This document shows positions 4,693 through 40,035 of a stretch of 64,000 bases of DNA, one piece after another. A model generated the notes under the pieces. It had not been told where the DNA came from, did no database searches, and saw only the letters and a program-made list of their open reading frames with translations. The DNA is taken from contig NZ_AP028934.1 in assembly GCF_036323475.1 (NCBI RefSeq), positions 2,108,001-2,172,000 of the forward strand, read 5' to 3'. The stretch comes from Solobacterium moorei (GTDB lineage: Bacteria > Bacillota_I > Bacilli_A > Erysipelotrichales > Erysipelotrichaceae). A program made the position numbers and the translations under genes. Each line of letters opens with the position of its first letter. Positions within the stretch are counted from its first letter, which is position 1.

Positions 4693-4693
4693 G

Positions 4694-7871: not shown

Positions 7872-7903
7872 GTCAATGAATATTTTATTTTTTATTCATT
7901 GAC
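7872..7903. promoter_or_regulatory. Inverted repeat 2 upstream of tetR operon (putative operator)
   Basis: Perfect 10-bp arms GTCAATGAAT and ATTCATTGAC are separated by 12 bases. It has the same inner ATGAAT/ATTCAT and a T-rich spacer like repeat 1. It sits exactly at the break point of the serine recombinase relic, so it may alternatively mark the end of the inserted cassette. Confidence 0.5.
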
Positions 7904-8206
<303 letters not shown>

Positions 8207-8214
8207 ATAACTCC

Positions 8215-8637
8215 TTGGATCAAATTATATATAATCATAAACATTCAACTATCACTCATACTGAATTAACAGAAAAATCGGAAAATAACAGTTTTTTATA
8301 TAGACTGTTAAAGAAGTTCATTGAACCTACATTAATATTTTTAAATAGCGAAAAAGCAATCGATTGTTTGATGATTTCATTTTCGGAAATCTTAAAAAAT
8401 TTAAATTTAGAGTATTCTAATGAATTAGCAACCAAATTTCTCTGTCATTCTGTAAATATGATTGAACGTGTTATAAAAAATGATACTTTCAAATATCAAA
8501 AAGTCAGAGAATTCATTGAAGAAAATAACCACTTATATAGAATAATAGAAAATTCTGTTTCTAATGTGAATGAAGTATTTGGTATTACTGTTCCAAAAGA
8601 TGAATTAGCATATATTGCAGAAATATTTTTACTTTAA
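8215..8637 (+). pseudogene. PRD-domain fragment (BglG/LevR-type regulator C-terminus)
   Basis: The frame gives 140 residues from TTG 8215 with no credible ribosome site, and a stop lies in frame at 8200, so the 5' part is missing. Residues 75-138 match a PTS regulation domain: FLCHSVNMIERVI, YRIIENSVSNVNEVFGI and PKDELAYIAEIFL, with the conserved His after the first helix and the E-AYIAE end. PRDs are phosphorylated by HPr and EIIB and sit in sugar-operon antiterminators and activators. Only the last PRD survives, with no RNA-binding or AAA domain, so the piece is probably non-functional debris at the edge of the accessory block. From 8640 to 8830 I find no convincing gene. Confidence 0.55.
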
Positions 8638-8831
8638 AAATTTCTGAGAATACTTGCAACTATAAATCCTATGCTTTAATAACTTAATTATTTCCAATAT
8701 ATAAAAAGACAGATTAACATGATTGATAACACCAAGATTATCTATCCACTGTTTTCTGCCTTTTTGTTATATATTGTTTTGTTCTATCTGATTTTCAAAA
8801 TACTACGTTATTCTGCTCTATATATTACTGA

Positions 8832-11132: not shown

Positions 11133-11133
11133 T

Positions 11134-13212: not shown

Positions 13213-13229
13213 AAATACCTTCTTTCAAA

Positions 13230-13284
13230 AATGACTATTGGTCATTCGACTCGATTAATGTAGTACAAAAATGACTTTTAGTCA
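13230..13284. promoter_or_regulatory. Twin palindromes between MMPL and tetR (putative TetR operators)
   Basis: Site 1 at 13230-13246 is AATGAC-TATTG-GTCATT. Site 2 at 13272-13284 is TGACT-TTT-AGTCA. Both share TGAC...GTCA with a short centre and lie in the divergent promoter region, the usual position of TetR operators. Binding is inferred from position and symmetry. Confidence 0.65.
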
Positions 13285-13326
13285 ATCTTTTTAATAAATA
13301 AATTGAAAATATGTTAAAATAATGTC

Positions 13327-13929
13327 ATGGGAAAATTGGCAGATAACAAAGAAAAAAAACAGCGCTCTCTTTTAGAAAGTGCATATGATCTATTTTTGAA
13401 CAAAGGATTCGAAAATACTGTTGTTTCGGATATCGTCATGAAAGCCGGTGTCGCAAAAGGTACGTTCTATCTGTATTTCAAAGATAAACATCAGGTACGT
13501 GATGTCCTGATTGCACGTACCGCCGAAAAGTTTTTTTTAGAGGCACTGTATGCATTGCAAAAGAAAAACATCTCCGACTTTACGGAACAAATCATTTTTA
13601 TCGTCGATTATGTTTTGAACATCATGCAGAAAAACCCGTTATTGCTGAGGTTTATTGCCAAAAATCTCAGTTGGGGAATTTATCAAAAGGCAATTGCGAA
13701 TGATAATACAAGTGAAAAAACAGCATATTCCTTGTTTATGGAGTTGGTACATTCGCATACGGAACTGCAAATCGACGCAATTGATACAATGTTATTTTTA
13801 ATCATTGAACTTGCCAGTTCAACATCTTATCGAGCAATTCTTGATCATGATCCCATGTCCTTTGATGCACTTAAACCTTACTTAAATCGCAGCATACGAG
13901 CAATCATCAAACTACATATTCAAAATTAA
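13327..13929 (+). CDS. TetR-family regulator, divergent from MMPL exporter
   Basis: The protein has 200 residues. Residues 12-58 are the TetR HTH (LLESAYDLFLNKGFENTVV, VMKAGVAKGTFYLYFKDKHQ). The remainder is an all-helical sensor domain with LLRFIAKNLSWGIYQK. It is transcribed away from the MMPL/YhgE-like operon and the 115-base gap contains two palindromes, so it most likely represses both directions. A TTAAAATAAT segment just before the start could be its -10 region. It is distinct from the other TetR protein of this window in sequence and in operator symmetry. Confidence 0.92.
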   Translation: MGKLADNKEKKQRSLLESAYDLFLNKGFENTVVSDIVMKAGVAKGTFYLYFKDKHQVRDVLIARTAEKFFLEALYALQKKNISDFTEQIIFIVDYVLNIMQKNPLLLRFIAKNLSWGIYQKAIANDNTSEKTAYSLFMELVHSHTELQIDAIDTMLFLIIELASSTSYRAILDHDPMSFDALKPYLNRSIRAIIKLHIQN

Positions 13930-13930
13930 A

Positions 13931-13972
13931 AGGATGATCATATAACATGCATTCATGCAATAGGATCATCCT
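13931..13972 (+). terminator. Terminator hairpin after tetR
   Basis: Perfect arms AGGATGATC and GATCATCCT surround a 24-base loop, starting 2 bases after the tetR stop. Only a weak T-run follows. It can also serve the converging diacylglycerol-kinase-family gene. Confidence 0.6.
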
Positions 13973-14000
13973 GTATCTTTATTATATCAACACATTTCAA

Positions 14001-14960
14001 CTACCAACCAAGAAAATGCATTTTCTCCGGCATCACTTCATAGGAAACTGAACTTGTTTGGTATTCAATCTCCCCGTCTGTATGAACCCAGACGGGTTTT
14101 TCTGTCTGAATATGAATGACTTTCCCGGATTTCAGATGAATGCCGGAAAACCGATCATGTGTTCCTTTCATTGCATACGGGAAGATGCGGAAGAAATCAA
14201 TTCTCCCTAATCCATCAGCCACACAGATATCCAACTTTCCGTCACACGGATCTGCCGCAGGGCAAAAATTGAAGCCACCACCCTCATATGCTTCATTCAT
14301 CGTTGCGATAAACAATAATTTTTTATATGTATAACTTTCGTTATCTATCTGTATCGTTGTTTTAAAATGATTATGTAAAAATATCAGATGCGCCCCGACA
14401 AACAGATAGATCAATCTTCCGATATGCAATGCATTGAGAATTTTTTTCCATGGAGATTGTTGAACCTGTACGCAGATTGCCGCATCATACCCGATACCGG
14501 AACTGATATTATAACGCCGCGTATAATCTTCATCAGATATTTTATTACCGTTTGCATCATAGCGATTATGGTATGTTAATACACCGACATCTAAATTTCG
14601 TCCAGCGTGATCATTTAAAATACGATGCAGGCAATCTATCGCACTCCCATGAATCCCCAATGATTTTGCCAGATCATTTCCTGATCCGCACGGAATCAAA
14701 CCTAAGTATGTATTTTGAAAATTGACGATACCGTTTACCGCTAAATTCATTGAACCGTCTCCACCGATCAGAATAATATTTACTCTTTCTTGACTCGAAG
14801 TAAGTTCGCGCATAATATCCTTGATTCCATGTGCAAGACTGGATAAATGAACAGCATACTCTATCCCCAACGTATCCATTTCTTTCTTCACTACAGTCCA
14901 ACACTCATTCGTCCTGCCACCTGCACCGGCAGGATTAATTACAATATGATAGCCATTCAT
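14001..14960 (-). CDS. Diacylglycerol/sphingosine kinase-family lipid kinase (DgkB/YegS type)
   Basis: The protein has 319 residues. A longer in-frame start exists upstream, but AAGGGGA before ATG 14960 and the natural beginning YHIVINPAGAGG point to this one. The NAD-kinase-like fold is recognised by NPAGAGGR, the nucleotide loop IILIGGDGSMNLAVNGI and GLIPCGSGNDLAKSLG. The C-terminal half has the beta-sandwich with FNFCPAADPCDGKLDICVAD. The family phosphorylates diacylglycerol or related lipids, recycling lipid left by lipoteichoic acid synthesis. It follows rnz by one base and is surely co-transcribed. The exact lipid substrate is not shown by sequence. Confidence 0.85.
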   Translation of the reverse strand: MNGYHIVINPAGAGGRTNECWTVVKKEMDTLGIEYAVHLSSLAHGIKDIMRELTSSQERVNIILIGGDGSMNLAVNGIVNFQNTYLGLIPCGSGNDLAKSLGIHGSAIDCLHRILNDHAGRNLDVGVLTYHNRYDANGNKISDEDYTRRYNISSGIGYDAAICVQVQQSPWKKILNALHIGRLIYLFVGAHLIFLHNHFKTTIQIDNESYTYKKLLFIATMNEAYEGGGFNFCPAADPCDGKLDICVADGLGRIDFFRIFPYAMKGTHDRFSGIHLKSGKVIHIQTEKPVWVHTDGEIEYQTSSVSYEVMPEKMHFLGW

Positions 14961-14961
14961 T

Positions 14962-15879
14962 CTATTCCCCTTCATCAATGAAACGTAATATTTTTTGTTG
15001 TCCGTCTTTGGCAATGACTGCCTGTGCAAAAATTTGATGTATGACATCTTCATATACAGACGGATCTTTGATTGATGGAGAATAATGTGTAAACCACAAC
15101 TCCTTCACCATCATTTTCTTTGCAAGAATTGCTGTTTCCTGCATTGTACTGTGTTTGTTCAGGCTTGCTTTTTCAATTTTTTCGGGATCGCCATACATTC
15201 CTTCACCAATATAAAGATCAGCATTACCCGCAAGTGTAATCAATTCATCGAGTGGTCTTGTATCCGTTGCATAGACCATCTTAAGACCTTGACGACTTTC
15301 ACCCAATACATCATCAGGTGTATATATCTTACCATCAAACTCGATTGTATTTCCTTTTTGAAGCTTTCCCCATAGCTGCATTGGAACACCCTTTGCAATT
15401 GCCTTGTCCTTATCAAACTTACGAGTACGATCTAGTTCAAAGATATACGCATAACAAGGCACACTATGTTTGGCATGTAATGCCTTAATTTTTAGACCCT
15501 TTATTTCAAAATCTATTTGTGGTCCATCAATTTCTACAAGTTTAATTTCAAAAGGAATATAGCGAGCAACTTTATAGATACCCTCAAATAATTCCGTTAA
15601 CCCTTTTGGTCCATAGATTGTTACAGCTTCTGTACGCTCAGACTTTGCCATTGTTAGTAATAAACCAGGTAGGCCTGCTGTATGGTCTGTATGGAAATGC
15701 GTTAAAAGAATTGTATCAATTGCTTTGCAAGAATATCCATGTTGATGTATGGCTATCTGTGTACCCTCTCCACAATCCACTAGTAATGTATTTCCATTCC
15801 ATCTTACCAATAAGGATGTTAACCATCGGTTTGGTAAGGGAACTGTTCCACCTGTACCTAGTAAACAAATATCTAGCAT
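14962..15879 (-). CDS. rnz: Ribonuclease Z (tRNA 3' processing)
   Basis: The protein has 305 residues, the normal length for the short form. It is a metallo-beta-lactamase fold enzyme: GTGGTVPLPNR at the N-terminus, the zinc motif LTHFHTDHTAGLPGL (HxHxDH), the AKHSVPCYAY segment, and YATDTRPL with LNKHSTMQETAILA toward the end. It cuts 3' trailers from pre-tRNAs lacking an encoded CCA. It overlaps the transcription unit of the lipid kinase downstream, and the pyrophosphatase terminator separates it from the genes upstream. Confidence 0.92.
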   Translation of the reverse strand: MLDICLLGTGGTVPLPNRWLTSLLVRWNGNTLLVDCGEGTQIAIHQHGYSCKAIDTILLTHFHTDHTAGLPGLLLTMAKSERTEAVTIYGPKGLTELFEGIYKVARYIPFEIKLVEIDGPQIDFEIKGLKIKALHAKHSVPCYAYIFELDRTRKFDKDKAIAKGVPMQLWGKLQKGNTIEFDGKIYTPDDVLGESRQGLKMVYATDTRPLDELITLAGNADLYIGEGMYGDPEKIEKASLNKHSTMQETAILAKKMMVKELWFTHYSPSIKDPSVYEDVIHQIFAQAVIAKDGQQKILRFIDEGE

Positions 15880-15910
15880 AAAACCTCTTTCTACTCATCT
15901 ATGGTAACAC

Positions 15911-15934
15911 AAAAAGCCCTGCAAAGCAGGACTT
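15911..15934 (-). terminator. Rho-independent terminator of the dut-map-pyrophosphatase unit
   Basis: On the minus strand AAGTCCTGC-TTT-GCAGGGCTT is followed by a T-run. It overlaps the last codons of the pyrophosphatase gene. Confidence 0.85.
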
Positions 15935-17570
15935 AGAGTTCTTTGATAATCGCAGATAGTTTTGGTAATAACTGTTGCTTTCTGGAAATGATATTTGGAT
16001 CATATCCAGAATGTTCATCAATCTGTGTTTCAATCATCTCTGATAATACATAAGACATCGGCCCATAGAAGACGAAGTAAGAACCATTACCCATTACATC
16101 CGTAAATAACATCAGTAATAGATCTAAATGACGATCCTTTTGTTCCTTCTCCATATTCTCCTTGAATGCAGGTAGTAACTTCTGTACTTCTTCGGTATGA
16201 CTGTAGTTTGTCTGACCAATAGAAATCTTATACTTACCGATATCGTAGTTCTTAAGGTCACGATTGAGGATTTCATGTGGTGTAGAATCCTTCAAGGCAA
16301 CAGAAGCACCCAGCATCTCTCTTGCGTATGCATCGATATCGTCAATACCCGCAAGTTCAGCTAATTTCTTGGCCACATTGATATCTTCAAGGGTTGTTGT
16401 GGCAGACTTGAAGTTTAATGTATCAGAAAGAATTGCACTCATCATTAAGCCAGCCATTGTAGGATCAGGAACGATATTCTTTTCGCAATATAAGCCATAC
16501 ACAATTGTACTTGTACAACCACAACGGTGGTTACGGTATTCAACTGGATGATCAGTCTGAATATCACCAATATGGTGATGGTCAATAATCGCAACGATAT
16601 CTGCCTTATCGATGTGCTTCATTGTTTGGTTTGTTGCGCTATGGTCAACGAGCGCAATACGTAGTTTCTTATAGTTACGTGTATGGTAGCGCGATACGCC
16701 ACCTACAACTTTACCGTTTTCATCGAGTACTGGATAACTACGTACACGTGATGCATTCATCTTTGTCGCAACATCTTCTACATACTCTGTATTCTTAAAG
16801 CAGATTAAATTTGTAGTCATAATCTGAGAAACAGAATAGCTCTCTGTAATAACAGTCGCTGTGTGCATGGTGCGATCAGCTGTCTCAACGATAGCACAAC
16901 CATATTCCATCGCAAGTTCCTTCACATCATCTGCCGCATGTTCACCACAAGTTAGAACCAAGCACTTTACACCTAGACGAATTAGGTTTAATTGCTTTTC
17001 GTGTCCTTCTGACATGATGATAATACTGCCAGCGATAAAACTTTCTACTATCTTTAAATCATCTAGTGTAACAATATGTACTTCACCATTTGTACTAAAT
17101 TCCTTTGGTCGCAGTGCAACTTTGCCACCAATAGTACGTGCGATATTATCTAATGTCGCAGTTGCCATTAAATCCCTTAAATCTGTGTCTTCATGAATGC
17201 GATAACGAGAAAGATCACTAGTGGAGCAGATACCACATAGATTCTCATTCTCATCTAGAACATATAAAGAACGATTCTGTGTTCTTAACATTAAATGCCA
17301 TGCATGATGAACTGTTTCATCATAACGAATGGTTGTTGGAGTATCGAGATTGATATCTGCTAGACGTGCACGCGCATCCGTCATCAATAGCGGATTATCC
17401 AAATGAAATCTACGTAAGATAAATTTTGTTTCTTCATTCAAAGGTCCTTGACGACAAGCAATTGCCGTACTACCAGTCTTATTCAATAAATTCGCAAACG
17501 CAATTGCCGAGCAGATTGAATCACTGTCTGGATGTTTATGACCTGTTACATAAATATTGTGATTACTCAT
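15933..17570 (-). CDS. ppaC: Manganese-dependent inorganic pyrophosphatase with CBS and DRTGG domains
   Basis: The protein has 545 residues, much longer than the 310-residue family II enzyme because a regulatory insert splits it. Residues 1-60 start the DHH domain (VTGHKHPDSDSICSAIAFA). Residues 70-130 and 250-305 are a CBS pair (MLRTQNRSLYVLDENENLCG; MNASRVRSYPVLDENGKVVGG) flanking a DRTGG domain at about 130-245. The DHH domain resumes with IALVDHSATNQ and AIIDHHHIGD, and DHHA2 closes with the substrate-binding SRKQQ near the end. It hydrolyses pyrophosphate; CBS-containing relatives are regulated by adenine nucleotides. It follows map by 37 bases and ends in a terminator. Confidence 0.92.
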   Translation of the reverse strand: MSNHNIYVTGHKHPDSDSICSAIAFANLLNKTGSTAIACRQGPLNEETKFILRRFHLDNPLLMTDARARLADINLDTPTTIRYDETVHHAWHLMLRTQNRSLYVLDENENLCGICSTSDLSRYRIHEDTDLRDLMATATLDNIARTIGGKVALRPKEFSTNGEVHIVTLDDLKIVESFIAGSIIIMSEGHEKQLNLIRLGVKCLVLTCGEHAADDVKELAMEYGCAIVETADRTMHTATVITESYSVSQIMTTNLICFKNTEYVEDVATKMNASRVRSYPVLDENGKVVGGVSRYHTRNYKKLRIALVDHSATNQTMKHIDKADIVAIIDHHHIGDIQTDHPVEYRNHRCGCTSTIVYGLYCEKNIVPDPTMAGLMMSAILSDTLNFKSATTTLEDINVAKKLAELAGIDDIDAYAREMLGASVALKDSTPHEILNRDLKNYDIGKYKISIGQTNYSHTEEVQKLLPAFKENMEKEQKDRHLDLLLMLFTDVMGNGSYFVFYGPMSYVLSEMIETQIDEHSGYDPNIISRKQQLLPKLSAIIKEL

Positions 17571-27915: not shown

Positions 27916-28137
27916 CTATAATGAAATATCCGCAGGAACGAACGTCCCTGCGGATAAACATTCCCGGATCGTCTGCCGTATCAGATCGGCAAGAGCATTT
28001 GCCTGCTCAAAGGAAGCATTGAGAGCGTCGATGACAGCCTTGTTCTTGGAGTCAGGGACGCTCTGTAAATGCTCCCACGCCTTGCGGTCTGATTCGTTAT
28101 CCAGATTGAAGCGCAGACTCATTCGCTTGATATTCAT
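27916..28137 (-). pseudogene. ParR-like partition adaptor, N-terminal part, disrupted by IS200
   Basis: The frame gives 73 residues. Residues 5-45 look like a ribbon-helix-helix (MSLRFNLDNESDRKAWEHLQ, SKNKAVIDALNASF), as in ParR/StbB proteins that bind a centromere site and cap ParM filaments. The start overlaps the parM stop by 4 bases (ATGA), so they were one operon. The frame ends in the IS200 end (ISL then stop), and the acidic C-terminal piece lies at 27126-27203. The N-terminal DNA-binding part may still be made. Confidence 0.65.
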
Positions 28138-28799
28138 TTCCCATCACCGGCCCTCAGAAGCTTTGCCTCTGCCATGCGTTCATAGCCCTTTACCGTGGCA
28201 CAGATATCCTCGTTGATCGTGACTCTGTTTTCGTCGTAATCGGCAAAGTTCTTGATGAGACAACCACCGCCGCCCACCACATAGAGCTTCATCAGACGGG
28301 GATCGTATCCGTGTTCACGCAGACGGCGGAAGATGCCGTCCACATATTCTCTGGCGGTATCGGTGATTGTTTTGAGATATTCCGGATCAATATCCGCCTC
28401 TCCGAAACGGAGCACACGGGTCACGGTTTCCTCCGGCGGCTCGGTGTGGTAAAGACGCATCAGATTTTCTTTCACCTGAAGCATACACTGGTGGGTACCG
28501 AATTTCTCGGTAAAGCACTTTCGTGGATCCGGCTTTTTATCATTGATGAACATCAGATTCATCGTGCCGTTTCCGATATCGCAAAGCATATTCACGCCGG
28601 TGAATTCCTTGATATTCACATATGCCGCTGCAAAGCCCTGTGCGAAAAGTTCAATACCGACGAAACGGATATGATACTCCTTCTCACGGAAGACGAAATC
28701 AACCGTTTCGTTCTGCATCAGATAATCCCGGAAAGCCGCTTTCTGCCATAAGTTGATACATCGAGAAATACTCTTGCCGTCCAAATAGACGGGTATCAT
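28134..28799 (-). pseudogene. ParM-like actin ATPase lacking its N-terminal subdomain
   Basis: The open frame gives 221 residues. It contains the phosphate-2 loop LCDIGNGTMNLMFIN and the adenosine motif LYVVGGGGCLIKNF of the ParM/actin fold. The first 100 or so residues with phosphate-1 are missing: directly upstream the sequence changes to the unrelated SAP-domain gene near 28805. ParM polymerises to push plasmid copies apart. Without phosphate-1 it cannot bind ATP normally, so it is scored as broken. The codons are GC-rich like those of mobC and parR and unlike those upstream, which supports a recombination joint. Confidence 0.72.
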
Positions 28800-29742
28800 T
28801 TGCCGCGCGTTTGTTTAGAATTGAGACAATCGTGTCTTCAAAACTTTCTCCGATAGTGTGGTTGGAATCGTAGTCCTTCCAGCTAATTCCCCACACATTA
28901 TGTCTATGAAGCTGAACATATGCATCATGCTCTGCCAAAAAACTCTTTCCCTTATCTGAAAGAGAGAAAGTAAACGGCCTGTGATTTGCAATAAATTCTT
29001 GATCCGCAGACGAAACGATACGTGAAATTAAATCTGCCTTTTTCCCCGTACTTGACGCACCTAACTGAGCAGTTAAAGCCTTTAATTCCGGCACCTTAAG
29101 GTACATAAACGCTTTTTCTACCGAATCTTCCTCGAGATAACCTTGCCGAATCATTTCCTCGTGATAGTATTGCGGATGTTGAATTCCACATTCATAAGTA
29201 ATGTATCGTGAATACTCATTATCTTCTTTTACAGGTCCGGACGAAGATACTGCCCACAAAAATACAGCCTTTGCATAGTCTCCCTGCAATTCCGGAATTT
29301 CGCCATCACTGGTTATAACAGAAAAAGTAGGAGTAAACGATTCAATGGGATTATCAAAATGATTTACCGGCTGATTTATTGGGCCCGAAGACGTGTTACC
29401 GCGTATATGGGTCGATGGCTCTACTTTGCTGGCTTTGGGGGAATCAGAAAGAGGAATTGTATTTGCTGATACCTTTTGGGGGCCAAGAAAGCGGTATGTC
29501 AACACTGTAGCTAAAATAGAAATACCAAGCAAAAAAAGCGCATACCAATCCGGCGCCTGTAAAACGTTGTTTTCGTCAACTCCCCATATATTCGAAGCAC
29601 AGATATGAACGGCTAAGAACACAACGAAAAACGCCAGAATGCTTAACGGCACCCGTCCTCTTCGCTTTTTTATTTGCCCCCCGCAAGACGAGCAGAATGA
29701 CACTTTATTAGATATTTTTGTATGGCAATAAGGGCAACGCAT
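28699..29742 (-). CDS. Zinc-ribbon, two-helix membrane protein with SAP domain; 3' end chimeric
   Basis: The open frame gives 347 residues. Residues 3-22 are a zinc ribbon (CPYCHTKISNKVSFCSSCG). Two membrane helices follow at about 30-50 and 67-86 (VPLSILAFFVVFLAVHICAS; WYALFLLGISILATVLTYRF). A linker leads to a helical domain with a SAP-like motif at about residues 215-250 (LKVPELKALTAQLGASSTGK, KADLISRIV), a DNA- or protein-binding fold. The last 30 or so residues after VSILNKRAANDTR are parM DNA read in another frame, so the native C-terminus is lost. It starts 17 bases after the FtsK-like gene stops and is the last gene of the four-gene cluster. The function is unknown. Confidence 0.6.
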   Translation of the reverse strand: MRCPYCHTKISNKVSFCSSCGGQIKKRRGRVPLSILAFFVVFLAVHICASNIWGVDENNVLQAPDWYALFLLGISILATVLTYRFLGPQKVSANTIPLSDSPKASKVEPSTHIRGNTSSGPINQPVNHFDNPIESFTPTFSVITSDGEIPELQGDYAKAVFLWAVSSSGPVKEDNEYSRYITYECGIQHPQYYHEEMIRQGYLEEDSVEKAFMYLKVPELKALTAQLGASSTGKKADLISRIVSSADQEFIANHRPFTFSLSDKGKSFLAEHDAYVQLHRHNVWGISWKDYDSNHTIGESFEDTIVSILNKRAANDTRLFGRQEYFSMYQLMAESGFPGLSDAERNG

Positions 29743-29759
29743 ATTTCTGCCTCTTTCTA

Positions 29760-31373
29760 TTATAACTCGTTTAATGGAACACCAATGTCTTGAGAGATTT
29801 GAGTCATAAATGTCTTCATTGTATGTGAAACGTTATTGTCAAATTCTATTTTCAAGATATCCGAAAGATTTTCTCTTGTAATAGTAATCAAATGTGAACT
29901 GTTATTGATGATTTTTACATCGGGTTTCATAATAAACTCAATATAGCCACGAGAAAACATACGAGGTTTTTTATATGTTAGACCGGCAACACTTTTTCCG
30001 TTGAACGACGCAGTGGTTGTACCCGGGCCGTATTTTGTCATAATCTTGTTTGAAATCTTGATTTGATTGTCGGTTATGCACAATCCAATATCACTAAAGT
30101 TAAATTGTGCAAAATCACGCATAATAATATCCGGGCCTTCATCATCGTTTGCCTCTGTGTGCGGCGTTGTATTACTTGTAAATGCAGATCGATTACTTGA
30201 TATGGCAGCATTATCAAAAGACTTGCTGGTTCCACTATTAATTGTTTGCCATTGGGATTTTGTAATTAGAATTTGACGCGGTTTCGCCCCTTCAAAAGGT
30301 CCAACGATACCACGTTCTTCCATCATATCAACAAGTCTCGCGGTTCTTGAATAGCCAAGTTTTAATCGCCGTTGAAGCATAGATACTGATGCCTGTCCTG
30401 TTTCAAAAACAACATCAACGGCGGTGGAGAAAAGCTCATCTTCATCCGACGCTGTATCCGTAGCTTTTGCGCTTTGCTCAACACTGGGATTATCAAAGAT
30501 CTGAGCCGCCATGCTCCCAAGAGCATTGATACTATTTTTATTCTGACGTTGAATCTTTTTTATTGCTTTCTGTGTATCCTCATCGGGAATATATATACCT
30601 TGGCATTTTACCAAATTATTTTGCCACCTGAAAATCAGTTCGCCCGGAACGCTGAGATTTTCAGCACCGTTTTGCTCGATTGCAACCCGGGAATCTGCTC
30701 TTGCTGAAACACAAAACGAAATCCTGCACGGTACATTTGACAGAATATCTTTTTGAAGAATTTTTGATGAAGTTAATGAAGTTACAAAAATAAAGTGAAT
30801 TCCAACTGGCCTACCATTTTTTAGGACATTCATCAAAGAAGCGGCGGTTTCGTTATCTAACTGAACGGAAGAAAAATCATCCAAAATCACAAACATATGC
30901 GGCAATTTTTCATTGCATGATGCTGCGAATTGCTTATTATATGTAACGATATCTTTAGCTGAAGACTCTGTTAACAGTTTTAGCCGCTTTTTAAGCTCTT
31001 TTGACAACCATGAAATCGCTCCTGCCGCTTTTCTGTCATCTGTTATGACAGGTATAATCAGATGAGGCATTGCATTAAAGACGGTATAATCTACATTCTT
31101 GGAGTCGTAGATAATAAACCTTACCTCTTCAGGAGGGTAATGTGTTGCTATATATGTGGTTACTGTTTGAACAAAAGATGTTTTGCCGGCACCCGAAAAA
31201 CCGCATATCAAAAAATGCGGTATTTGGCTTATATCCTGAAAGAATGATTCTCCATCCGCCTTTGTACCAATAGGAGTGATGATTTCTCCTGCTTGTGACA
31301 TATTTGATTGTTGTGTATTGTCTTCGTAAGCGCAATTCTGCGCCGCGCCGCCGGTGAGAAAATCATTATCCAT
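29760..31373 (-). CDS. FtsK/SpoIIIE-like ATPase with FtsK-gamma winged helix and PH-like C-terminus
   Basis: The protein has 537 residues. Residues 45-260 are an FtsK-type P-loop domain: HFLICGFSGAGKTSFVQTV (Walker A), MFVILDDFSSVQ (Walker B), FIFVTSL (sensor). Residues 310-370 match the FtsK gamma winged helix (DELFSTAVDVVFETGQASVS, YSRTARLVDMMEERGIVGP), the part that reads KOPS DNA in real FtsK. Residues 430-537 look like a bacterial PH-type beta domain. There are no membrane helices, unlike FtsK, SpoIIIE or EssC. It is tightly packed between the AAA+ gene (5 bases) and the SAP gene (17 bases). It is probably a soluble DNA- or protein-pumping ATPase; the cargo is unknown. Confidence 0.75.
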   Translation of the reverse strand: MDNDFLTGGAAQNCAYEDNTQQSNMSQAGEIITPIGTKADGESFFQDISQIPHFLICGFSGAGKTSFVQTVTTYIATHYPPEEVRFIIYDSKNVDYTVFNAMPHLIIPVITDDRKAAGAISWLSKELKKRLKLLTESSAKDIVTYNKQFAASCNEKLPHMFVILDDFSSVQLDNETAASLMNVLKNGRPVGIHFIFVTSLTSSKILQKDILSNVPCRISFCVSARADSRVAIEQNGAENLSVPGELIFRWQNNLVKCQGIYIPDEDTQKAIKKIQRQNKNSINALGSMAAQIFDNPSVEQSAKATDTASDEDELFSTAVDVVFETGQASVSMLQRRLKLGYSRTARLVDMMEERGIVGPFEGAKPRQILITKSQWQTINSGTSKSFDNAAISSNRSAFTSNTTPHTEANDDEGPDIIMRDFAQFNFSDIGLCITDNQIKISNKIMTKYGPGTTTASFNGKSVAGLTYKKPRMFSRGYIEFIMKPDVKIINNSSHLITITRENLSDILKIEFDNNVSHTMKTFMTQISQDIGVPLNEL

Positions 31374-31378
31374 AAGAT

Positions 31379-33643
31379 TCAGCCTTTCTTTATAGCTTTG
31401 AAAACATCCGTTTCAGTTATAACACTTAATTCTTGGCTTGAACTTTCACTATTTTTTGAAATGCGCTTGGCTTGCTGAGTAACAACCCTTTCAAACAAGT
31501 TCCTTGCACCACGACCGTTTCCAATATCTGCAATAGAAACAGAAGAAAAATAGTCTTTTACTGCCGTTGTTGCATCCTCTGATAGTTCGTACTGATTTTT
31601 TTGGCAAAGAGAACCGAAAATATTATACATTTCTTCTGTGGAATAATCTGAAAAATGTATGTAACGATTAAATCTGGACTCCAATCCGGGATTTGAGTGA
31701 ACGAAATCGTCCATCAGTTCATCATATCCGGCAACGATAACCACGAGATCATCGCGTTTGTCCTCCATCGCTTTTAGAAGAGTATCAATCGCTTCTTGAC
31801 CAAAGTCATTTGCTCCGCCATTCGAAAGTGTATATGCTTCATCGATGAAAAGGACTCCGCCAAGAGCGCTATTTATCACTTCTTGTGTCTTTATTGCCGT
31901 TTGCCCTACGTATCCAGCAACAAGACCGCTTCTGTCAGTTTCCACGAGATGTCCTTTTGATAACAAGCCTAATGATTTATATAGTTTTGCTACGTAACGA
32001 GCAACTGTAGTTTTTCCCGTGCCCGGATTACCCATAAAAACAAGATGAAGAGATAATGACGGAACTTTTAGCCCTTGCGCTTTCCTACGTTGCTGATGCT
32101 GCACTACATAAATAAGATCAGATATTTCTTCTTTAACTAATTCAAGCCCAGTAAGCTCGTTAAATGTTGCAAGGATATCTTCAAGAGTCTCTTCTTCGTG
32201 TTCAGTGTCTTGACACCATGAAACATCATCTGCAGTGATTGTAGAAAGGATTTCTTCCGTCTTTTCCCTTTTAGAAGCAATTCGGGATGCTTGTTTCGAT
32301 ATTACATTCTCAAAGAAATTTCTTGCAGTACGGGCATTAGCAAAGCTTTCGTCATGCGATTCGCAAATTGCCACAAAATACTGCTTTATGATCTCGCTGG
32401 CATCGTCTGTAACGGTATAGGCGTTTTTGGCACAAAGAGAGTTGAAAATCCCCATCATTTCCTCGGATGTATAGTCTTCAAAATGAATAAACTTATTAAA
32501 GCGAGATTTTAATCCGGGATTTGACTCAATGAATTGTTTCATAAGGTCATCATAACCGGCAACAATAACTGCAAAATCGCCTCGGTGATCTTCCATTTCT
32601 TTGAGTAACGTATCAATGGCTTCTTGCCCATAACCTTGGCCTGTCTTATCTAAAAGGGTATAAGCCTCATCAATAAACAGCACACCGCCAAGCGCTTTTT
32701 CGATGATCTCTCCGGTTTTTATTGCCGTTTGTCCAACATAACCGGCTACCAAATCCTTTGCGGTTGCCTCAACAAGATGCCCCTTTGATAGGATGCCAAG
32801 TTCTTTATATATTTGAGCGACTAAACGTGCCACCGTCGTTTTTCCTGTTCCAGGATTGCCTGTGAAAACCAAATGGTAGGACATTTCAGATATGGGCAGG
32901 CCCCGTGTCTTACGGGCTTTCTGAACTTTGGCAAAATCGCTGATTTCCTTGACTTCCATCTTTGCCGCAGACAATCCGATAAGCTGACTCAATTCATCAA
33001 ACGGGGACTTTTTGCTTGAAGACGGTTGGGTGCTTTTTTCTGATTTTTGCTTGCTTTCGGAATTAGTACGCGTGGTTGTTGCATTCGGTGCAGCAGAAAT
33101 AATTGGTGAGATAACATCATCAGTATCATCCACGAAATCAAAAGGATCAATGCTATCATCATAAGCAATAATATGATGCTCGTCACAGGCCTTAACCAAA
33201 TCGCCGTGAAGTTTCGTAATCATTTTTGCTTCTTCATATTCAACTGTCCCGTCAATCAAAGCAAAGGAAATAAAGACTAAGCCGAAGCATGATGCCAGTT
33301 TTCTACTATAATTTGTTCCGTCTTTCAAATCATTCTCAATGATTTTCTTGAAAAACGCTGGGACCGGCATAGAATACTGGCGTTCTGACAACTTTGACAT
33401 TGCGGCTTTTACTTGATTGACAGTGAAAACTCTCTTTTTGTAATCTTCGGCAAATATGACGTTTAGGCACTCTTTGCAAGTGTTAATATCTATTGAGAAA
33501 GAGTTCCATAGATACATAGCACATGTACGGCAATAATTATCAATCAGCGTTATTGTGTCAGGCAAGATATGGGGGTACACGCGTATAAACGCTTGTACTG
33601 ATTTTTGATAATTGGAATGTAATTCCTCTTTATACGTTCCCAT
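31379..33643 (-). CDS. Tandem CbxX/SpoVK-type AAA+ ATPase with N-terminal TerB-like region
   Basis: The protein has 754 residues from ATG 33643, which sits 6 bases after GAGG; an upstream in-frame start lacks a site. Residues 30-170 are helical and contain a TerB-like stretch (ALIDGTVEYEEAKMITKLHG). After a Ser-rich linker come two nearly parallel AAA modules at about 230-470 and 500-754. Each has GNPGTGKTTVAR (Walker A), LVAGYVGQTAIKT (pore loop region), GGVLFIDEAYTL (Walker B) and an Arg-finger helix (NPGLKSRFNKFIHF; NPGLESRFNRYIHF). Tandem CbxX modules with intact motifs suggest an active hexameric remodeller. EccA of type VII secretion has a single module of this kind. It overlaps the DUF4236 gene by 14 bases. 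Confidence 0.82.
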   Translation of the reverse strand: MGTYKEELHSNYQKSVQAFIRVYPHILPDTITLIDNYCRTCAMYLWNSFSIDINTCKECLNVIFAEDYKKRVFTVNQVKAAMSKLSERQYSMPVPAFFKKIIENDLKDGTNYSRKLASCFGLVFISFALIDGTVEYEEAKMITKLHGDLVKACDEHHIIAYDDSIDPFDFVDDTDDVISPIISAAPNATTTRTNSESKQKSEKSTQPSSSKKSPFDELSQLIGLSAAKMEVKEISDFAKVQKARKTRGLPISEMSYHLVFTGNPGTGKTTVARLVAQIYKELGILSKGHLVEATAKDLVAGYVGQTAIKTGEIIEKALGGVLFIDEAYTLLDKTGQGYGQEAIDTLLKEMEDHRGDFAVIVAGYDDLMKQFIESNPGLKSRFNKFIHFEDYTSEEMMGIFNSLCAKNAYTVTDDASEIIKQYFVAICESHDESFANARTARNFFENVISKQASRIASKREKTEEILSTITADDVSWCQDTEHEEETLEDILATFNELTGLELVKEEISDLIYVVQHQQRRKAQGLKVPSLSLHLVFMGNPGTGKTTVARYVAKLYKSLGLLSKGHLVETDRSGLVAGYVGQTAIKTQEVINSALGGVLFIDEAYTLSNGGANDFGQEAIDTLLKAMEDKRDDLVVIVAGYDELMDDFVHSNPGLESRFNRYIHFSDYSTEEMYNIFGSLCQKNQYELSEDATTAVKDYFSSVSIADIGNGRGARNLFERVVTQQAKRISKNSESSSQELSVITETDVFKAIKKG

Positions 33644-34979
33644 TTTCATCCTCTTCCAAGAACATAGACATATCATCTATGAGGCTGTTATCGTTATTTG
33701 AATCGCCATCTACGCTCTCCGTCTCAAACAAATCCGAGTAAATGTCTTTCTCGATGTTATCTGCCGGAGCAGCTTCTTCATTGTCAAAAAGGCCGACACC
33801 TGCGGCGGCAACTGACGCTAAGCTACTGTCATTTTCAGGCTTGATAGAACTTATGCCATCATCACCCGCCATTGGCTGAATATCATTCACTTCATATTCT
33901 TCTACAGCATTGGGTGGCATCAACCCTATTGTATTTACATACGATTTGTAGAGCTTATAGGCGTTACCAACATTTTCGGCAATGAGTTTATTAGAAGTAT
34001 GTAATTCTATGCTTAAATCTTGTTCAACCATAAAATGGACAAGTCCGTAACTGCATACAGGTATCTGGCGATTGTTGTTGAAACGCTTATCGGCAGTTCC
34101 GTTTTTATTAACATACTGCCAAGTATATCTAATAATCTCCGCATCACGAGGTACGGGATCAGTCTCTATGAAATTCGTAGTAGAGGAATACACTGTCAAC
34201 TGATCATAGGAATAAGCAACATATTTTGCGCCTTTTTTAATAATTACATCGCTGGGGAGAAACAGCAGAGAGCATTTCCGACTTTTCACCAAAACCGAAA
34301 GAGCATCCGTCTTAACTTTGAAGCTGGTTCTATGCTTGGGCTTGATCTTTTTTACAGTCGCTCCGCTACGAGAAATATTACGTGAGGCACCGGCATGATA
34401 TTTAGTATTTGAGTTAAGCTTTGCCGTTTCAATGATCCAGAGCTTTTTGCTGGATTTTAGCAGGTTTATTATTTCAGAATACTTATCCCATTCCAAAGAA
34501 GCGCTGCTGTCAAGATCGTATTTTATAACAGCGTTAAACAGCTTCGGGAAAACAAGTCTAACCAAAATTATTGGAATTAACGCCCACCAGGAAATTAACG
34601 CAAACAAAACAACAGACAGAATAATCCAGCACCACGTAAATGCCTTTGCGCGTTTAATGTCTTTAATAATGTTTCCGCTCAATTCAGAGGTATTTCCGGA
34701 AGAGGGGGATACTCTTATTGCGTCTGTAAAAGAATATGTGTTCTCGTAATTAAAAGTGGGAGAATATGCCTGCTTAATGCTTGCGGTATTCTTTTTAGAA
34801 GATGAACCGCCGATCTTTTTGCGATAATATATGCCGTTTCTGCCGACATTAACATAGGTTCCATTTGGCCCCATTGATAAACGAGCACCTTTAACTCCGG
34901 TGGAAACACCTACGCCGGATTTTGAAAAATTCACTCTAAACGGTCCAAAAGACTTGCTTTTCCTGAAATACAATCCCAT
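33630..34979 (-). CDS. DUF4236 membrane protein
   Basis: The protein has 449 residues. Residues 1-55 are a DUF4236 domain: LYFRKSKSFGPFRVNFSKSG, VGVSTGVKGARLSMGPNGTY and NVGRNGIYYRKK, a repeat-like beta segment of unknown role. Two membrane helices lie at about 115-145 (WCWIILSVVLFALISWWALI; PIILVRLVF). A soluble domain of about 200 residues follows (LLFLPSDVIIKKGAKYVAYS, TWQYVNKNG), then an acidic Glu/Asp-rich tail (FLEEDENGNV). It heads the four-gene cluster after a frameshifted XRE gene and overlaps the AAA+ gene. DUF4236 proteins often occur beside AAA or phage-like genes, but no function is established. Confidence 0.75.
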   Translation of the reverse strand: MGLYFRKSKSFGPFRVNFSKSGVGVSTGVKGARLSMGPNGTYVNVGRNGIYYRKKIGGSSSKKNTASIKQAYSPTFNYENTYSFTDAIRVSPSSGNTSELSGNIIKDIKRAKAFTWCWIILSVVLFALISWWALIPIILVRLVFPKLFNAVIKYDLDSSASLEWDKYSEIINLLKSSKKLWIIETAKLNSNTKYHAGASRNISRSGATVKKIKPKHRTSFKVKTDALSVLVKSRKCSLLFLPSDVIIKKGAKYVAYSYDQLTVYSSTTNFIETDPVPRDAEIIRYTWQYVNKNGTADKRFNNNRQIPVCSYGLVHFMVEQDLSIELHTSNKLIAENVGNAYKLYKSYVNTIGLMPPNAVEEYEVNDIQPMAGDDGISSIKPENDSSLASVAAAGVGLFDNEEAAPADNIEKDIYSDLFETESVDGDSNNDNSLIDDMSMFLEEDENGNV

Positions 34980-34988
34980 ATCGACACC

Positions 34989-35200
34989 TCAATTATTATC
35001 ATCAATGGTAAAGTCCATAATTTCATCAACGCTGCAATTAAGTGCTACACAGATTTTGTAAAGACTTTCCATCGATATAAACTCATTTTTTCCCAGCTTG
35101 GCAAGAATGTTAAAACTGATTCCAGACGCATCTTTCAAATCTGTCCGAGTCATTTTTTATCGATTAGTTTTTTCCAAAGCTTGTCATATGAAACAGGCAT
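34989..35200 (-). pseudogene. XRE-family (HTH_26-like) regulator with a one-base deletion
   Basis: From ATG 35200 (GGGAG upstream) the frame reads MPVSYDKLWKKLIDKK and then TGA. One base over, it continues TRTDLKDASGISFNILAKLG, KNEFISMESLYKICVALNCS and VDEIMDFTIDDNN. This is a typical 70-residue Cro-like HTH protein. The shift lies in a run of six A (T on the plus strand, near 35153-35158) where seven would restore the frame. An internal ATG at the slip could make a 54-residue protein without helix 1. It lies directly upstream of the DUF4236 gene and was probably its regulator. Confidence 0.78.
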
Positions 35201-35297: not shown

Positions 35298-37000
35298 CTC
35301 AAGTGAAAAGTTAAATTCCACTTCTAAGGTACGAAAGTTGAATTTAGTTATTCACCAAGCTCTAGTTGAATTTACTCTTACACTTCTAGTTCAATATAAG
35401 TGCCGATTCTTCGTGTTTTAGGAGGAAAACATTATGTTAACGAAGAATTCACACATGTCTTATTCAGATAGACAGATCATTGAAACTGGTATCGAAAATG
35501 GTTCTACCAAACAAGCTATCGCTACTACCCTTGGTAAAGACAAATCAACCATAGGAAAAGAAATCAAATTCCATCGTGTCCTTGCATACAAATGTAATCT
35601 GCCTCTAGAGTGTGCTAACTACAAACGCTGTAAACATGAACGCCATTGTACTCTGGATTGTATCGATTATGTCCCTTTCAAATGTACTCGCAGGGACAAG
35701 TCACCAGGAGCTTGTAATGGATGTGGAAACTATCGCTCTTGTCGCTATGACAAATATCGATACTCTGCCCTCGATGCACAGCACGACTACCAGATGACAC
35801 TTACATCTTCACGACAAGGTGTCAATGCGACAGTAAATGATATCAAGCAGCTCGGTGAACTCTTATTACCATTGATTAAGAAAGGTCAGTCCATCTACTC
35901 TATTCTTCAAAGCCACAAAGAGATCAAGCTATCCGAAAAGACGATATACAACTATATCGAAAATGGTGTCTTCCAAGATGTGGGTGTATCGATCGGTGCC
36001 ATCGATTTGAAACGTGTCGTAAGACGAAAGATGTCCAAACAAAAGCGCAATACATACAAGCCACGTAAAGACAATCGATACCTGACAGGAAGAAAGTACT
36101 CCGACTTCTTGATATACATGGAAAAGAATCCAAATGCCAAGGTCGTAGAGATGGATACGGTATACAACGACGTGTCCAACGGACCTTTCCTACAGACCTT
36201 CAAATTCAGAGAGTATGACCTGTTGATATGTATCTATCAAACCGTAAAGGACTCCTTACATATGTTGGATGGGATCCTATTATTGGAAAAGATATTAGGA
36301 AAAGAAATGTTCGAAAAAGAAGCCGAGGTCATATTAACCGACAGAGGAAGTGAATTCGTCCTAGCTGAAGAAGCGGAGATACGTGAAGATGGAACTCGCA
36401 GGACACGTATGTTCTACTGTGATTCAATGGCCTCTTGGCAGAAAGGTAGTCTAGAGAACCTACACCTATTGGTAAGAGAGATATGCCCAAAGGGATGTGA
36501 TCTCCATGCATTGGGACTTACATCACAAGAAAAGGCAAATCTCATCAGTATCCATATTAATTCATATCCAAAAGAAAAGCTGCACGGAAGATCATCCATA
36601 CAGCTGCTCCATTTCTACAACGAAGAAATGGCCAAGAAACTCTATGATTTTGGAATTACCGAAATCCCACCAGACGAAGTAATTCTAAAACCATATCTTC
36701 TAAAGTAAGAAGATAACCAAGAAGTTTCAAAATCAATTACACACGAAGGATCGGCATATAACTTTCACCAAACAACGAAGTAGAATCAACTCTTACAAAT
36801 TTTTTGAACAGTAGATTCTGCCTACCTTTCATGCGCTCATTTTTCTGTTACTTCACCTTCATTCTAACTAAAATAAAATCATTTTCAACTTAAAAATAGT
36901 ACCATCTTGGATTATCAATCCTTGCCAGTACTATTTCTGAATGACTTACTTCCACTTTATTGTTTATTCTTTAGAAGTGGAATTTAACTTTTCACTTGAG
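35298..37000 (+). mobile_element. IS30-family element, type 1
   Basis: A 30-bp perfect terminal inverted repeat begins CTCAAGTGAAAAGTTAAATT at 35298 and its inverse ends at 37000. The element is 1703 bp with one intact transposase. About 290 non-coding bases follow the gene. It abuts the second IS30 element with one base between them. Confidence 0.9.
35434..36708 (+). CDS. IS30-family transposase, type 1
   Basis: The protein has 424 residues with a TAGGAGG site. The N-terminal HTH_38 domain reads SYSDRQIIETGIENGSTKQA then IATTLGKDKSTIGKEIKFHR. A Cys-rich segment follows (ECANYKRCKHERHCTLDC, GCGNYRSC). The DDE core has VVEMDTVYND (Asp), ILTDRGSEFV (Asp) and SWQKGSLENLH (Glu). All catalytic residues are present. 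It shares the layout but not the sequence of the IS30 copies at 37.1 and 59.8 kb. Confidence 0.93.
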   Translation: MLTKNSHMSYSDRQIIETGIENGSTKQAIATTLGKDKSTIGKEIKFHRVLAYKCNLPLECANYKRCKHERHCTLDCIDYVPFKCTRRDKSPGACNGCGNYRSCRYDKYRYSALDAQHDYQMTLTSSRQGVNATVNDIKQLGELLLPLIKKGQSIYSILQSHKEIKLSEKTIYNYIENGVFQDVGVSIGAIDLKRVVRRKMSKQKRNTYKPRKDNRYLTGRKYSDFLIYMEKNPNAKVVEMDTVYNDVSNGPFLQTFKFREYDLLICIYQTVKDSLHMLDGILLLEKILGKEMFEKEAEVILTDRGSEFVLAEEAEIREDGTRRTRMFYCDSMASWQKGSLENLHLLVREICPKGCDLHALGLTSQEKANLISIHINSYPKEKLHGRSSIQLLHFYNEEMAKKLYDFGITEIPPDEVILKPYLLK

Positions 37001-37001: not shown

Positions 37002-38529
37002 AGTTTCAACATAAACGCAACACTCTGTTGCGTTAACATGTGACATGTTATCTTTATTCCTGTGTATCCGTTGGACTCCTATTTTAGATACCAGGAGAAA
37101 ACATTTATGTCAGGTAAACATTTCACACTCGAAGACCGTATCAATATCCTTATGCATGTCAGACAAAATCATTCCATGCGTATGATAGCTGCCGCTTTGA
37201 ATGCCTCTGCTTCTACTGTTTCCAGAGAACTTGAAAAGCATAGGATCCTTGATGAATACTCTGTCTTTCATCCTCTCGCTCCTACCTGCAGCCGAATCAT
37301 GAAGGCCCCTTGGGTATGCAATGGCTGTCCTCGTTTCTCTGCATGTAAAAAAAGAAAGTATCGCTACATCCCTGCACAGGCACATAGTGCTTATGAATCT
37401 ACTCTTCATCTGTCTAGAGAGAAGATCCGTACTGGGGAAAAAGGTCTGAGATTTCTCGATAATCTCGTCACACCTTTGATTCGTGACCAAAGGCAAACCG
37501 TCGCCCACGTATTCTCCACTCATGGTGAACAGATGGGAATATCCCGTTCTACTTTTTACCGCTATGTCAATGACAATAAGCTCACCATCCGCAATATAGA
37601 TCTTCCCAAGCGAGTTCGCTATCCGCTCCTCAAAAAGAATATCAAACGTGGCGATAACACAATGATAGACAATCAATCGTGCCGTGTGGGACGCGATTAT
37701 ACTGCCTTTCAGGAATTCATTGCCCAACATCCGAAAGCTAATATCGCTGAGATGGATTCCGTCATCGGTAAGAAAGGTGTCGGCGAAAAGGTGCTTCTAA
37801 CTCTACTATTACGTAAGAGTAAATTTATGTTTGCCTTCCTAAGGAATAGAAATACACAAGCTTCTGTAACAGAAGTATTCGACTACATCCAAAGGAAAAT
37901 CGGCTTTGCAAGGTTCGCTACTATGTTCCATGTGGTGCTTACAGACAACGGTCCTGAATTCAAGGACCCCATTTCCTTGGAACATGGTACACGCAACGTA
38001 CAGCGCTGTCGTATATTTTATTGTGATTCCCGTGCTTCCCAACAAAAGGGGCGTATTGAAAAGAATCATGAATATATTCGAAAATATCTGCCCCAAGGAA
38101 CTTCCTTTAACGACCTTACACAAGAAAAGGTAAATCTAATGATGAGCCATATCAATTCCGTCAAGCGTGACTCATTGGATGGTCGTTCACCATTTGAATG
38201 TCTCACTAGAGCAGAACTCAAAACAATAAAAAAGCTTGGATTAACACCAATCGATCCAGATGAAGTCAATCTAAGCCTAGACCTAATTCAATAGGTCCCC
38301 GAAGTCCAACGGATACTCGACTTACACAAACTGAACTGTTGCGTTTAGTTGACACCTAAACCCTTCAGTTGTTTTCATTGCGCCCAAAAAGCAAGTATCC
38401 CTACATAGAAGATACCATATTACCATTAAAAAGAGTCATTATAGATTAAAAAATCATCTGATAATGACTACATTAGTTCGTTATCTGTTGCCTTTGCTTA
38501 TCGTGTTGCGTTTACTTTGAAACTTAAGC
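37002..38529 (+). mobile_element. IS30-family element, type 2, copy A
   Basis: It is nearly identical to 59676-61208. Ends are AGTTTCAACATAAACGC on the left and GTTTACTTTGAAACTTAAGC on the right. Copy B starts five bases earlier (AGTTA), so the type 1 element next door seems to have replaced the first bases of this copy. The right end is followed by the 12-bp direct repeat at 38530. Confidence 0.88.
37107..38294 (+). CDS. IS30-family transposase, type 2, copy A
   Basis: The protein has 395 residues from ATG 37107 with CAGGAGAA upstream; the in-frame sequence before it (MYPLDSYFRYQEKTF) lacks a site. HTH_38 is at the N-terminus (FTLEDRINILMHVRQNHSMR, ALNASASTVSRELEKH), then a CxxCxxxxxC cluster (CNGCPRFSACKK). 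The catalytic triad is in IAEMDSVIGKK, VVLTDNGPEFKDP and SQQKGRIEKNHEY. It differs from copy B by only a few residues (LMHVRQ/LIHVKQ, FHPLAP/FHHLAP, TIRNID/TTRNID). Confidence 0.93.
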   Translation: MSGKHFTLEDRINILMHVRQNHSMRMIAAALNASASTVSRELEKHRILDEYSVFHPLAPTCSRIMKAPWVCNGCPRFSACKKRKYRYIPAQAHSAYESTLHLSREKIRTGEKGLRFLDNLVTPLIRDQRQTVAHVFSTHGEQMGISRSTFYRYVNDNKLTIRNIDLPKRVRYPLLKKNIKRGDNTMIDNQSCRVGRDYTAFQEFIAQHPKANIAEMDSVIGKKGVGEKVLLTLLLRKSKFMFAFLRNRNTQASVTEVFDYIQRKIGFARFATMFHVVLTDNGPEFKDPISLEHGTRNVQRCRIFYCDSRASQQKGRIEKNHEYIRKYLPQGTSFNDLTQEKVNLMMSHINSVKRDSLDGRSPFECLTRAELKTIKKLGLTPIDPDEVNLSLDLIQ

Positions 38530-39679: not shown

Positions 39680-39689
39680 TGGTGGAGCT
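39680..39689 (+). repeat. Putative attR: ssrA 3' terminus
   Basis: TGGTGGAGCT (minus strand AGCTCCACCA) is the end of ssrA and is repeated directly at 20410-20419. The stretch between the copies is 19.3 kb of accessory DNA. Confidence 0.5.
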
Positions 39690-40035
39690 GAGGAGAGTCG
39701 AACTCCTGTCCAAGAATAGTCCCACATTTGTGCATCTACAGTTTATCTCACTGCAAAGTAAGACAATAACCACGACAGTGAGCGAACAAGTTATTGAATT
39801 TACCTGTAAATTGTCGGGTTCGCCCTACAGGCATTAGGTTCACCGTATCCATTTATTTACGCAATCAATACAGAATGGCTAAAGCATTGACCGGGTTGCT
39901 GCAACGCATCTAGCGTTCTTAGGCAGCAAAAGCGAAACTATTTGTTCTATTTGCGTTTAAATTTATTTAGTGATTAGGTCACAACTCCACTGCCGCACAA
40001 ATCAAACATAAACCTGTCGAAACCATGACAGCCCC
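39680..40035 (-). ncRNA. ssrA: tmRNA (ssrA)
   Basis: The RNA is 356 nt. The 5' end GGGGCTGTCATGGTTTCGAC and the 3' end GGAGTTCGACTCTCCTCAGC followed by TCCACCA pair as the tRNA-like domain with T-loop GTTCGACTC and an encoded CCA. The tag frame at 39919-39954 (minus strand) reads A-N-R-T-N-S-F-A-F-A-A and TAA, followed by the pseudoknot region. It rescues stalled ribosomes together with SmpB, encoded 148 bases upstream on the same strand. The tag ends FAFAA instead of the common LALAA or VALAA. Confidence 0.95.

Follow-up and report, generated by a model that had tools for sequence, protein, structure and literature searches.

A conserved, mobile three-gene cassette encoding a DUF4236 protein, a tandem CbxX ATPase and a soluble FtsK in Solobacterium moorei

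Shango is a compact, multi-gene, mobile cassette that includes ATPases, and is experimentally established as an anti-phage system (PMC10250203). There are three Shango proteins: SngA, which contains TerB; SngB, a BrxC/D-like ATPase; and SngC, a helicase. A locus of similar overall form is described here from a 64,000-nucleotide stretch of the Solobacterium moorei genome (contig NZ_AP028934.1; 2.108–2.172 Mb of a 2.6 Mb single-contig genome), referred to below as the window. It is a real, conserved and mobile cassette of three genes, newly delimited here, which encode a DUF4236 protein, a tandem CbxX-type AAA+ ATPase and a soluble FtsK-type motor. Unlike Shango, the window lacks a TerB_N/TerB_C protein, a BrxC/D ATPase and an SngC-type helicase, and has CbxX and FtsK in their place. 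At the thresholds used, SngA and TerB had no match among the window proteins, whereas the same libraries detect both in the Arthrobacter loci L051 and L137; SngB and SngC were likewise not found in the window, the ATPases of which match PADLOC models of the IetA, TRIP13, SspH and mad8 type. In these two Arthrobacter loci, which represent a subset of Shango, the N-terminus of SngA (TerB_N–TerB–TerB_C) is fused to the same DUF4236–hairpin–PH module that is found in the first gene of the cassette; SngB follows in both, and SngC too in L051. The loci span 8001–15707 (L051, where the annotated start misses the module) and 4069–8819 (L137).

Type III-A CoCoNuT operons, which are Ter-linked restriction systems, use FtsK/EssC-like or SpoVK-family ATPases as alternative extensions (PMC11090510), which shows that restriction systems have taken up motors of both types. 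The window likewise has soluble ATPases of these types. However, in CoCoNuTs the ATPases are alternatives flanked by VWA genes, whereas the window has both, together with DUF4236, and its core has no VWA, McrB or HEPN.

The motors themselves belong to well-described families. CbxX-clade enzymes act as dedicated, non-degrading chaperones, and their N-termini, which vary, serve in recruitment (PMC10659427). Both AAA modules of the cassette protein belong to this CbxX/SpoVK/EccA clade, but here there are two modules in one chain, preceded by an N-terminal region and encoded together with a DUF4236 protein and an FtsK. The FtsK/SpoIIIE translocases share their motor fold and gamma domain with the cassette motor, which differs in lacking the N-terminal membrane part and in having a DD Walker B and a PH-like C-terminal tail. 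Type VII secretion also combines one CbxX-type with one FtsK-type ATPase (EccA and EccC). In contrast, the window has no WXG100 gene nearby and no membrane-anchored, multi-motor EccC, and its FtsK has a gamma domain. The only WXG100 matches in the genome are at 0.498 and 1.363 Mb, none being within the window; two WXG100 genes and an EssC-like gene (1363207–1368278) constitute a separate type VII secretion locus.

The three-gene cassette and its relatives

A preliminary description, made from the sequence alone, proposed a four-gene cluster. There are indeed four open reading frames on the minus strand (34979–33630, 33676–31379, 31373–29760 and 29742–28699), but the unit that is conserved elsewhere comprises the first three:

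33630–34979, minus strand: core gene 1, DUF4236 protein of 449 amino acids (Pfam DUF4236, 7.9e-16)
31379–33643, minus strand: core gene 2, tandem AAA+ ATPase of the CbxX/SpoVK/EccA clade, 754 amino acids from the corrected start (NCBIfam models)
29760–31373, minus strand: core gene 3, soluble FtsK-type motor (Pfam FtsK motor, 2.3e-25; FtsK-gamma, 3.7e-28)

Only a DUF4236 alignment reached relatives of the cassette. It was scanned against the genomes of 84,980 species, and the best 80 of 348 matches were taken as loci; the FtsK tail, as a single-protein query against genome contigs, gave no match. The two best of the 80 loci match gene 1 over its full length, including the tail, and in both of them the CbxX and FtsK genes adjoin in the same order and on the same strand. 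Both hosts are gut-type bacteria: one locus (L074) is from a Lachnospiraceae metagenome-assembled genome, and the other (L075) from an Oscillospiraceae metagenome-assembled genome from goat caecum. The identities to the window proteins (L074 and L075, respectively) are 48 and 46% for DUF4236, 51 and 67% for CbxX, and 32 and 51% for FtsK. The cassette genes abut or overlap (genes 1 and 2 overlap in L074, genes 2 and 3 in L075), and the core reading frames in the window are full length compared with both relatives. Neither L074 nor L075 has the fourth gene beside the cassette or an XRE gene directly upstream of it, and their flanks differ; therefore, the conserved unit is three genes. Judged by sequence comparison, this gene order is more than chance, because it recurs in two other genomes with unrelated flanks.

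Two further genomes have reduced forms of the cassette; the refuting condition named in the preliminary description, that the genes would be found to occur together only rarely, does not overturn the cluster, given these forms and the two complete copies elsewhere. In L087, a DUF4236–FtsK-gamma fusion is followed by a single-AAA CbxX gene and then by a gene for a zinc-ribbon membrane protein (the zinc ribbon was called by eye and has no Pfam match). In L145, which lies within a prophage, the FtsK motor has been dropped, and the gene after DUF4236 encodes a CbxX protein with four AAA modules; within this cargo (9244–16004), an ion-channel gene overlaps DUF4236, and the CbxX protein is 1483 amino acids long. 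In the 1.27 Mb surrounding the 80 DUF4236 genes, CbxX-like genes are present at only 4 loci, always directly downstream on the same strand, with a gap of at most 72 bp. By a rough reckoning, random placement would yield CbxX always downstream about once in a million. Two other candidates were set aside: the FtsK adjoining DUF4236 in L054 is the chromosomal FtsK; and the phage-labelled contig of L058, with a CbxX of 61% identity, is bacterial chromosome.

The complete cassette is rare and occurs sporadically on mobile DNA. In overlapping samples of other genomes of the phylum, the FtsK tail was found in 0 of 391 and 0 of 279 (matches with E values of 0.0003–0.008 in the latter sample were not counted as relatives), and a comparable tandem CbxX in 0 of 294 at a threshold of 1e-95. 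Viral contigs gave no match to FtsK alone, to the FtsK tail or to the cluster-type DUF4236 alignment.

The core proteins

The product of gene 1 consists of a beta-rich DUF4236 domain (residues 3–53), a helical, predicted membrane hairpin (about 110–147), a PH-like region (about 150–351) and a disordered, acidic tail. The AlphaFold model, built from 48 sequences, is confident over most of residues 100–350, with a predicted local distance difference test score (pLDDT) above 90 across most of 160–350, and its hairpin coincides with the hydrophobic stretch that hydropathy identifies at 110–147. When the PH-like domain was compared with known structures using Foldseek and VIA-align, nearly all of the top rows were PH, PTB or FERM-type folds; the best VIA Z was a moderate 7.3 (Exo84/Sin1 PH domains; 98 residues, 3.2 A). 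With moderate confidence, residues 150–351 can be assigned to the PH fold in the model, i.e., a beta sandwich with a C-terminal helix. The last 104 residues contain 26 Asp or Glu but 2 Lys or Arg, and the end of the tail is conserved in 3/3 copies as LID...F..E (L433, I434, D435, F440, E443).

The start of gene 2 is probably at 33643 rather than 33676, because both relatives start there in the alignment. A variable, helical N-terminal region (about residues 1–190) precedes two AAA modules, both of which are intact, with Walker A (residues 262 and 538), Walker B (residues 321 and 597) and an arginine finger. The NCBIfam models spore_V_K (8.4e-173), EccA (2.7e-143) and CbbX (3e-143) all match above their cut-offs, and in the PDB the protein matches CbbX (1.4e-58). 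By its domains and motifs, the protein fits the CbxX/SpoVK/EccA clade.

Gene 3 encodes a motor (residues about 30–260), an FtsK-gamma winged helix (310–371), a linker and a PH-like tail (about 429–537). The motor begins at about residue 30, and hydropathy reveals no hydrophobic or transmembrane segment in the protein. In the PDB, it matches FtsK at 5.1e-70 versus 1.3e-22 for the ESX protein YukB. Walker A (GFSGAGKT) is intact; Walker B is ILDD, with DD replacing the usual DE, as in both relatives (L074, L075). The recognition helix of the gamma domain resembles that in the host's own FtsK, with much of the sequence retained. The PH-like nature of the tail, suspected in the preliminary description, was upheld by a model of the tail alone built from 3 sequences (pLDDT 79) and by structure comparison: VIA Z was 9.1 to SSRP1 and 8.0 to the bacterial PH structure 3hsa, with PH-type folds through most of the top rows (Z 9.1 to 7.0). 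As modelled, this tail has the PH fold (beta sandwich and C-terminal helix), and two of the three core proteins carry predicted PH-like domains.

Damaged edges and surroundings

Outside the core, the following features are present:

34989–35200, minus strand: remnant of an XRE/HTH_26 regulator gene (Pfam HTH_26, 1.7e-10 on the 3′ part; three-frame reading)
28699–29742, minus strand: accessory gene 4, with zinc ribbon, two transmembrane segments and SAP (Pfam SAP, 4.9e-8; zinc ribbon sub-threshold)
28134–28745, minus strand: truncated ParM/StbA-type actin ATPase with its N-terminal part missing (phrog_691 partition protein, matched from profile position 119)
35434–36708, plus strand: IS30-type transposase, the upstream flank of the cluster (open reading frame; Pfam HTH_38, 2.2e-9; family name inferred)
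39680–40035, minus strand: transfer-messenger RNA (tmRNA, ssrA; Rfam RF00023, 5.3e-43)

An XRE regulator had been thought to head the cluster. An HTH_26 remnant is indeed there, but it is frameshifted and lies outside the conserved core. Its frame opens at 35200, and a one-base shift in an A run breaks the frame after codon 16 (GAT AAA AAA TGA), so that the product reads MPVSYDKLWKKLIDKK and stops, the sequence then going on one base out of frame. The shift lies in GATAAAAAATGA (35150–35200) and may be a mutation, a slippage site or a homopolymer sequencing error; the break is either a true frameshift or an error of sequencing.

At the opposite edge, relatives of the SAP half of gene 4 (in another genome, G221, and in Streptococcus phage Javan617) run on for about 100 amino acids past the end of gene 4, and the last 15 or so amino acids of gene 4 are parM read out of frame. 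ParM homologues from the same genus align only from residue 19 of the parM reading frame onward, i.e., from about 28745. Because the SAP relatives extend by about 100 residues while ParM homology starts at about 28745, gene 4 is read from these alignments as a 3′-truncated chimera, joined to parM at that position. At the junction (28699–28800), the SAP gene runs at its 3′ end into a parM that lacks its 5′ part; both genes are broken there, and the sequence originally downstream of gene 4 has been lost.

Profile searches confirmed the domains first proposed for the cluster (DUF4236, tandem CbxX, FtsK with gamma, and SAP), the zinc ribbon remaining below threshold; the two predicted membrane proteins also stood, with hydrophobic helices by hydropathy in the DUF4236 and gene 4 proteins and none in FtsK. 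Gene 4 is rejected as a member of the system, as it is absent from both conserved copies. Its membrane segment is shared with a phage-encoded Mrr-like protein (L062; 44% over the transmembrane segment), so that gene 4 is best read as a cargo gene in its own right. A relative of gene 4 is located in a phage lysogeny module. The phage gene L062 (8013–9875) encodes a membrane protein, one end of which is apparently an Mrr-like nuclease, and has in common with gene 4 the motif VDENNVLQAPDWY and the transmembrane segment. Scans of viral contigs with gene 4 and DUF4236 found only this transmembrane segment and a solitary DUF4236 gene, which is in a phage lysogeny module (L063).

The description of the locus as an island among mobile elements was correct: the window contains several transposases, a NikA-like mobilisation protein and the parM remnant. 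Two transposase-like reading frames of 410 amino acids each (37062–38294 and 59741–60973) seem to be copies of the same insertion sequence. The part of the window that is rich in mobile elements is on the 3′ side of the tmRNA, and smpB and rnr (SmpB and RNB domains) follow beyond the tmRNA. The tag peptide that ARAGORN derives from the tmRNA, ALQQPGQCFSHSVLIA, is unusual. A duplicated attachment site was looked for at the tmRNA end in the window and at tRNA-Arg in L075, and was absent from both.

Possible roles of the cassette

Defence, element maintenance and secretion were the roles first offered for this locus; among them, defence is favoured by context, maintenance is possible and secretion is unlikely. 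The cassette can be viewed as a horizontally moving module that most likely protects the cell from phage or other incoming DNA, a reading that we hold tentatively and with slightly less than even confidence. Defence is favoured because of the gene context, i.e., the SngA fusion, AbiH, RhuM, a helicase–nuclease and prophage cargo. In L074, the cassette has AbiH and RhuM genes beside it, and the RhuM gene matches the PADLOC candidate PDC-S05; L087 adjoins a superfamily-1 helicase with a restriction-type nuclease domain; and DUF4236 in L145 sits between phage lysis genes and a recombinase.

DUF4236 is also found in other settings. In two mycobacterial loci (L088, 10001–12628; L107, 10001–12661) it is fused to an RNase_T (DEDDh-type) exonuclease domain, and on a Pseudomonas aeruginosa plasmid (L048, 2232–12569) it is flanked by a DUF3320 protein on one side and a UvrD-type (GajB-like) helicase on the other.

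A more specific proposal is that of a new defence system, in which a CbxX double ring would pull the acidic tail of a membrane-anchored PH protein and thereby release a soluble FtsK, or license it to act, on incoming DNA at the membrane; such a system would be based on a DUF4236–hairpin–PH module that is also used by Shango and several nuclease proteins. In this complete form, the proposal is speculative and somewhat unlikely. CbbX acts on Rubisco by engaging the Rubisco C-terminal tail. In the simplest model for the defence reading, the three cassette proteins may form one complex, held at the inner membrane by the DUF4236 protein sitting there. FtsK would dock to the DUF4236 protein and engage (bind or move) DNA through its gamma domain, and CbxX would pull a tail as its substrate, the simplest candidate being the conserved, acidic C-terminal end of the DUF4236 protein; this would switch the membrane complex on or off, with defence as the output. 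The fusion in L087 suggests joint action of FtsK-gamma and the DUF4236 protein, and the two-gene form in L145 suggests that the DUF4236 protein is a target or partner of CbxX. What has been observed is the conserved gene order, the domains, the predicted folds, the intact motifs in both CbxX AAA modules and in FtsK Walker A, and the fusions of DUF4236 to FtsK-gamma and SngA; the complex, the CbxX substrate and the defensive output are inferred.

Several observations weigh against a defence role. PADLOC has no model for gene 1, and its matches for genes 2 and 3 are no more than those of generic ATPases. None of the three core genes encodes a nuclease domain or a killing domain of another kind. 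In most cases DUF4236 stands alone: at 1e-5, no CbxX or FtsK neighbour was seen at 76 of the 80 loci. The complete copies found are three, a number at which enrichment near defence genes is not statistically assessable. With a DD Walker B, hydrolysis by gene 3 is uncertain. A TerB-like motif was seen by eye in the N-terminal region of gene 2; however, profile tests gave no support for TerB as its N-terminal domain (hhalign probability 0.8%, from thin alignments; no Pfam TerB match in the window), the L087 relative alone reaching TerB, at E 0.038.

A second reading is that the cassette serves the maintenance, transfer or segregation of a mobile element, in which FtsK would move DNA of the element or the chromosome at the membrane and the complex would be recycled by CbxX. 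FtsK-gamma normally reads DNA polarity motifs, and the host-like recognition helix of gene 3 would suit this role, as would the parM remnant, the NikA-like protein and the transposases. However, the parM adjoining the cassette is an artefact of the junction, the stretches of L074 and L075 that were read show neither parM nor a relaxase next to the cassette, and the L087 and L145 variants are without the FtsK motor. We consider this role unlikely.

Another unlikely account, given about the same weight, is that of a dedicated chaperone and stress-response module that serves some process of the envelope or membrane, as SpoVK serves MurG and EccA serves secretion, and that would not be directed at invaders. 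CbxX-clade members of known role each work on a single client protein, at a specific site (PMC10659427), and DUF4236 is a membrane protein that is widespread as a solitary gene. This account does not explain the sporadic distribution on mobile DNA (the overlapping phylum samples above) or the fusion of DUF4236 to a defence protein, and it has no place for an FtsK-gamma DNA-binding domain.

That the cassette in this genome is a decaying fragment without function is improbable. The regulator is frameshifted, gene 4 is truncated into parM and the stretch is full of transposases; but all three core reading frames are full length, the Walker A and CbxX AAA motifs are intact, and the A-run frameshift could be a sequencing error. 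Least probable by far, and largely refuted, as the preliminary description had anticipated, is a relative of type VII secretion (CbxX as EccA, FtsK as EccC): gene 2 does exceed the EccA cut-off and gene 3 resembles EssC at 1e-30, but the EssC score of 106 bits compares with a cut-off of 778, a true FtsK with gamma is matched far better than YukB, gene 3 is a single motor without a membrane part, and the two above-cut-off WXG100 genes of the genome lie with the EssC-like gene at 1.363–1.368 Mb, 0.77 Mb away.

The literature searched, which omits most subscription journals, contains no description of the DUF4236–CbxX–FtsK combination, in agreement with the earlier view that the system was undescribed. 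If the role is defence, this would be the first known case in which immunity pairs a motor of the CbxX/Rubisco-activase type with a true FtsK-gamma DNA motor. DUF4236, which is widespread without an assigned function and is named by one paper in the literature searched, would then gain a role as a membrane-anchoring PH module common to unrelated defence proteins. The small size of the cassette and the existence of an intact, differently flanked copy (L075) make the idea directly testable.

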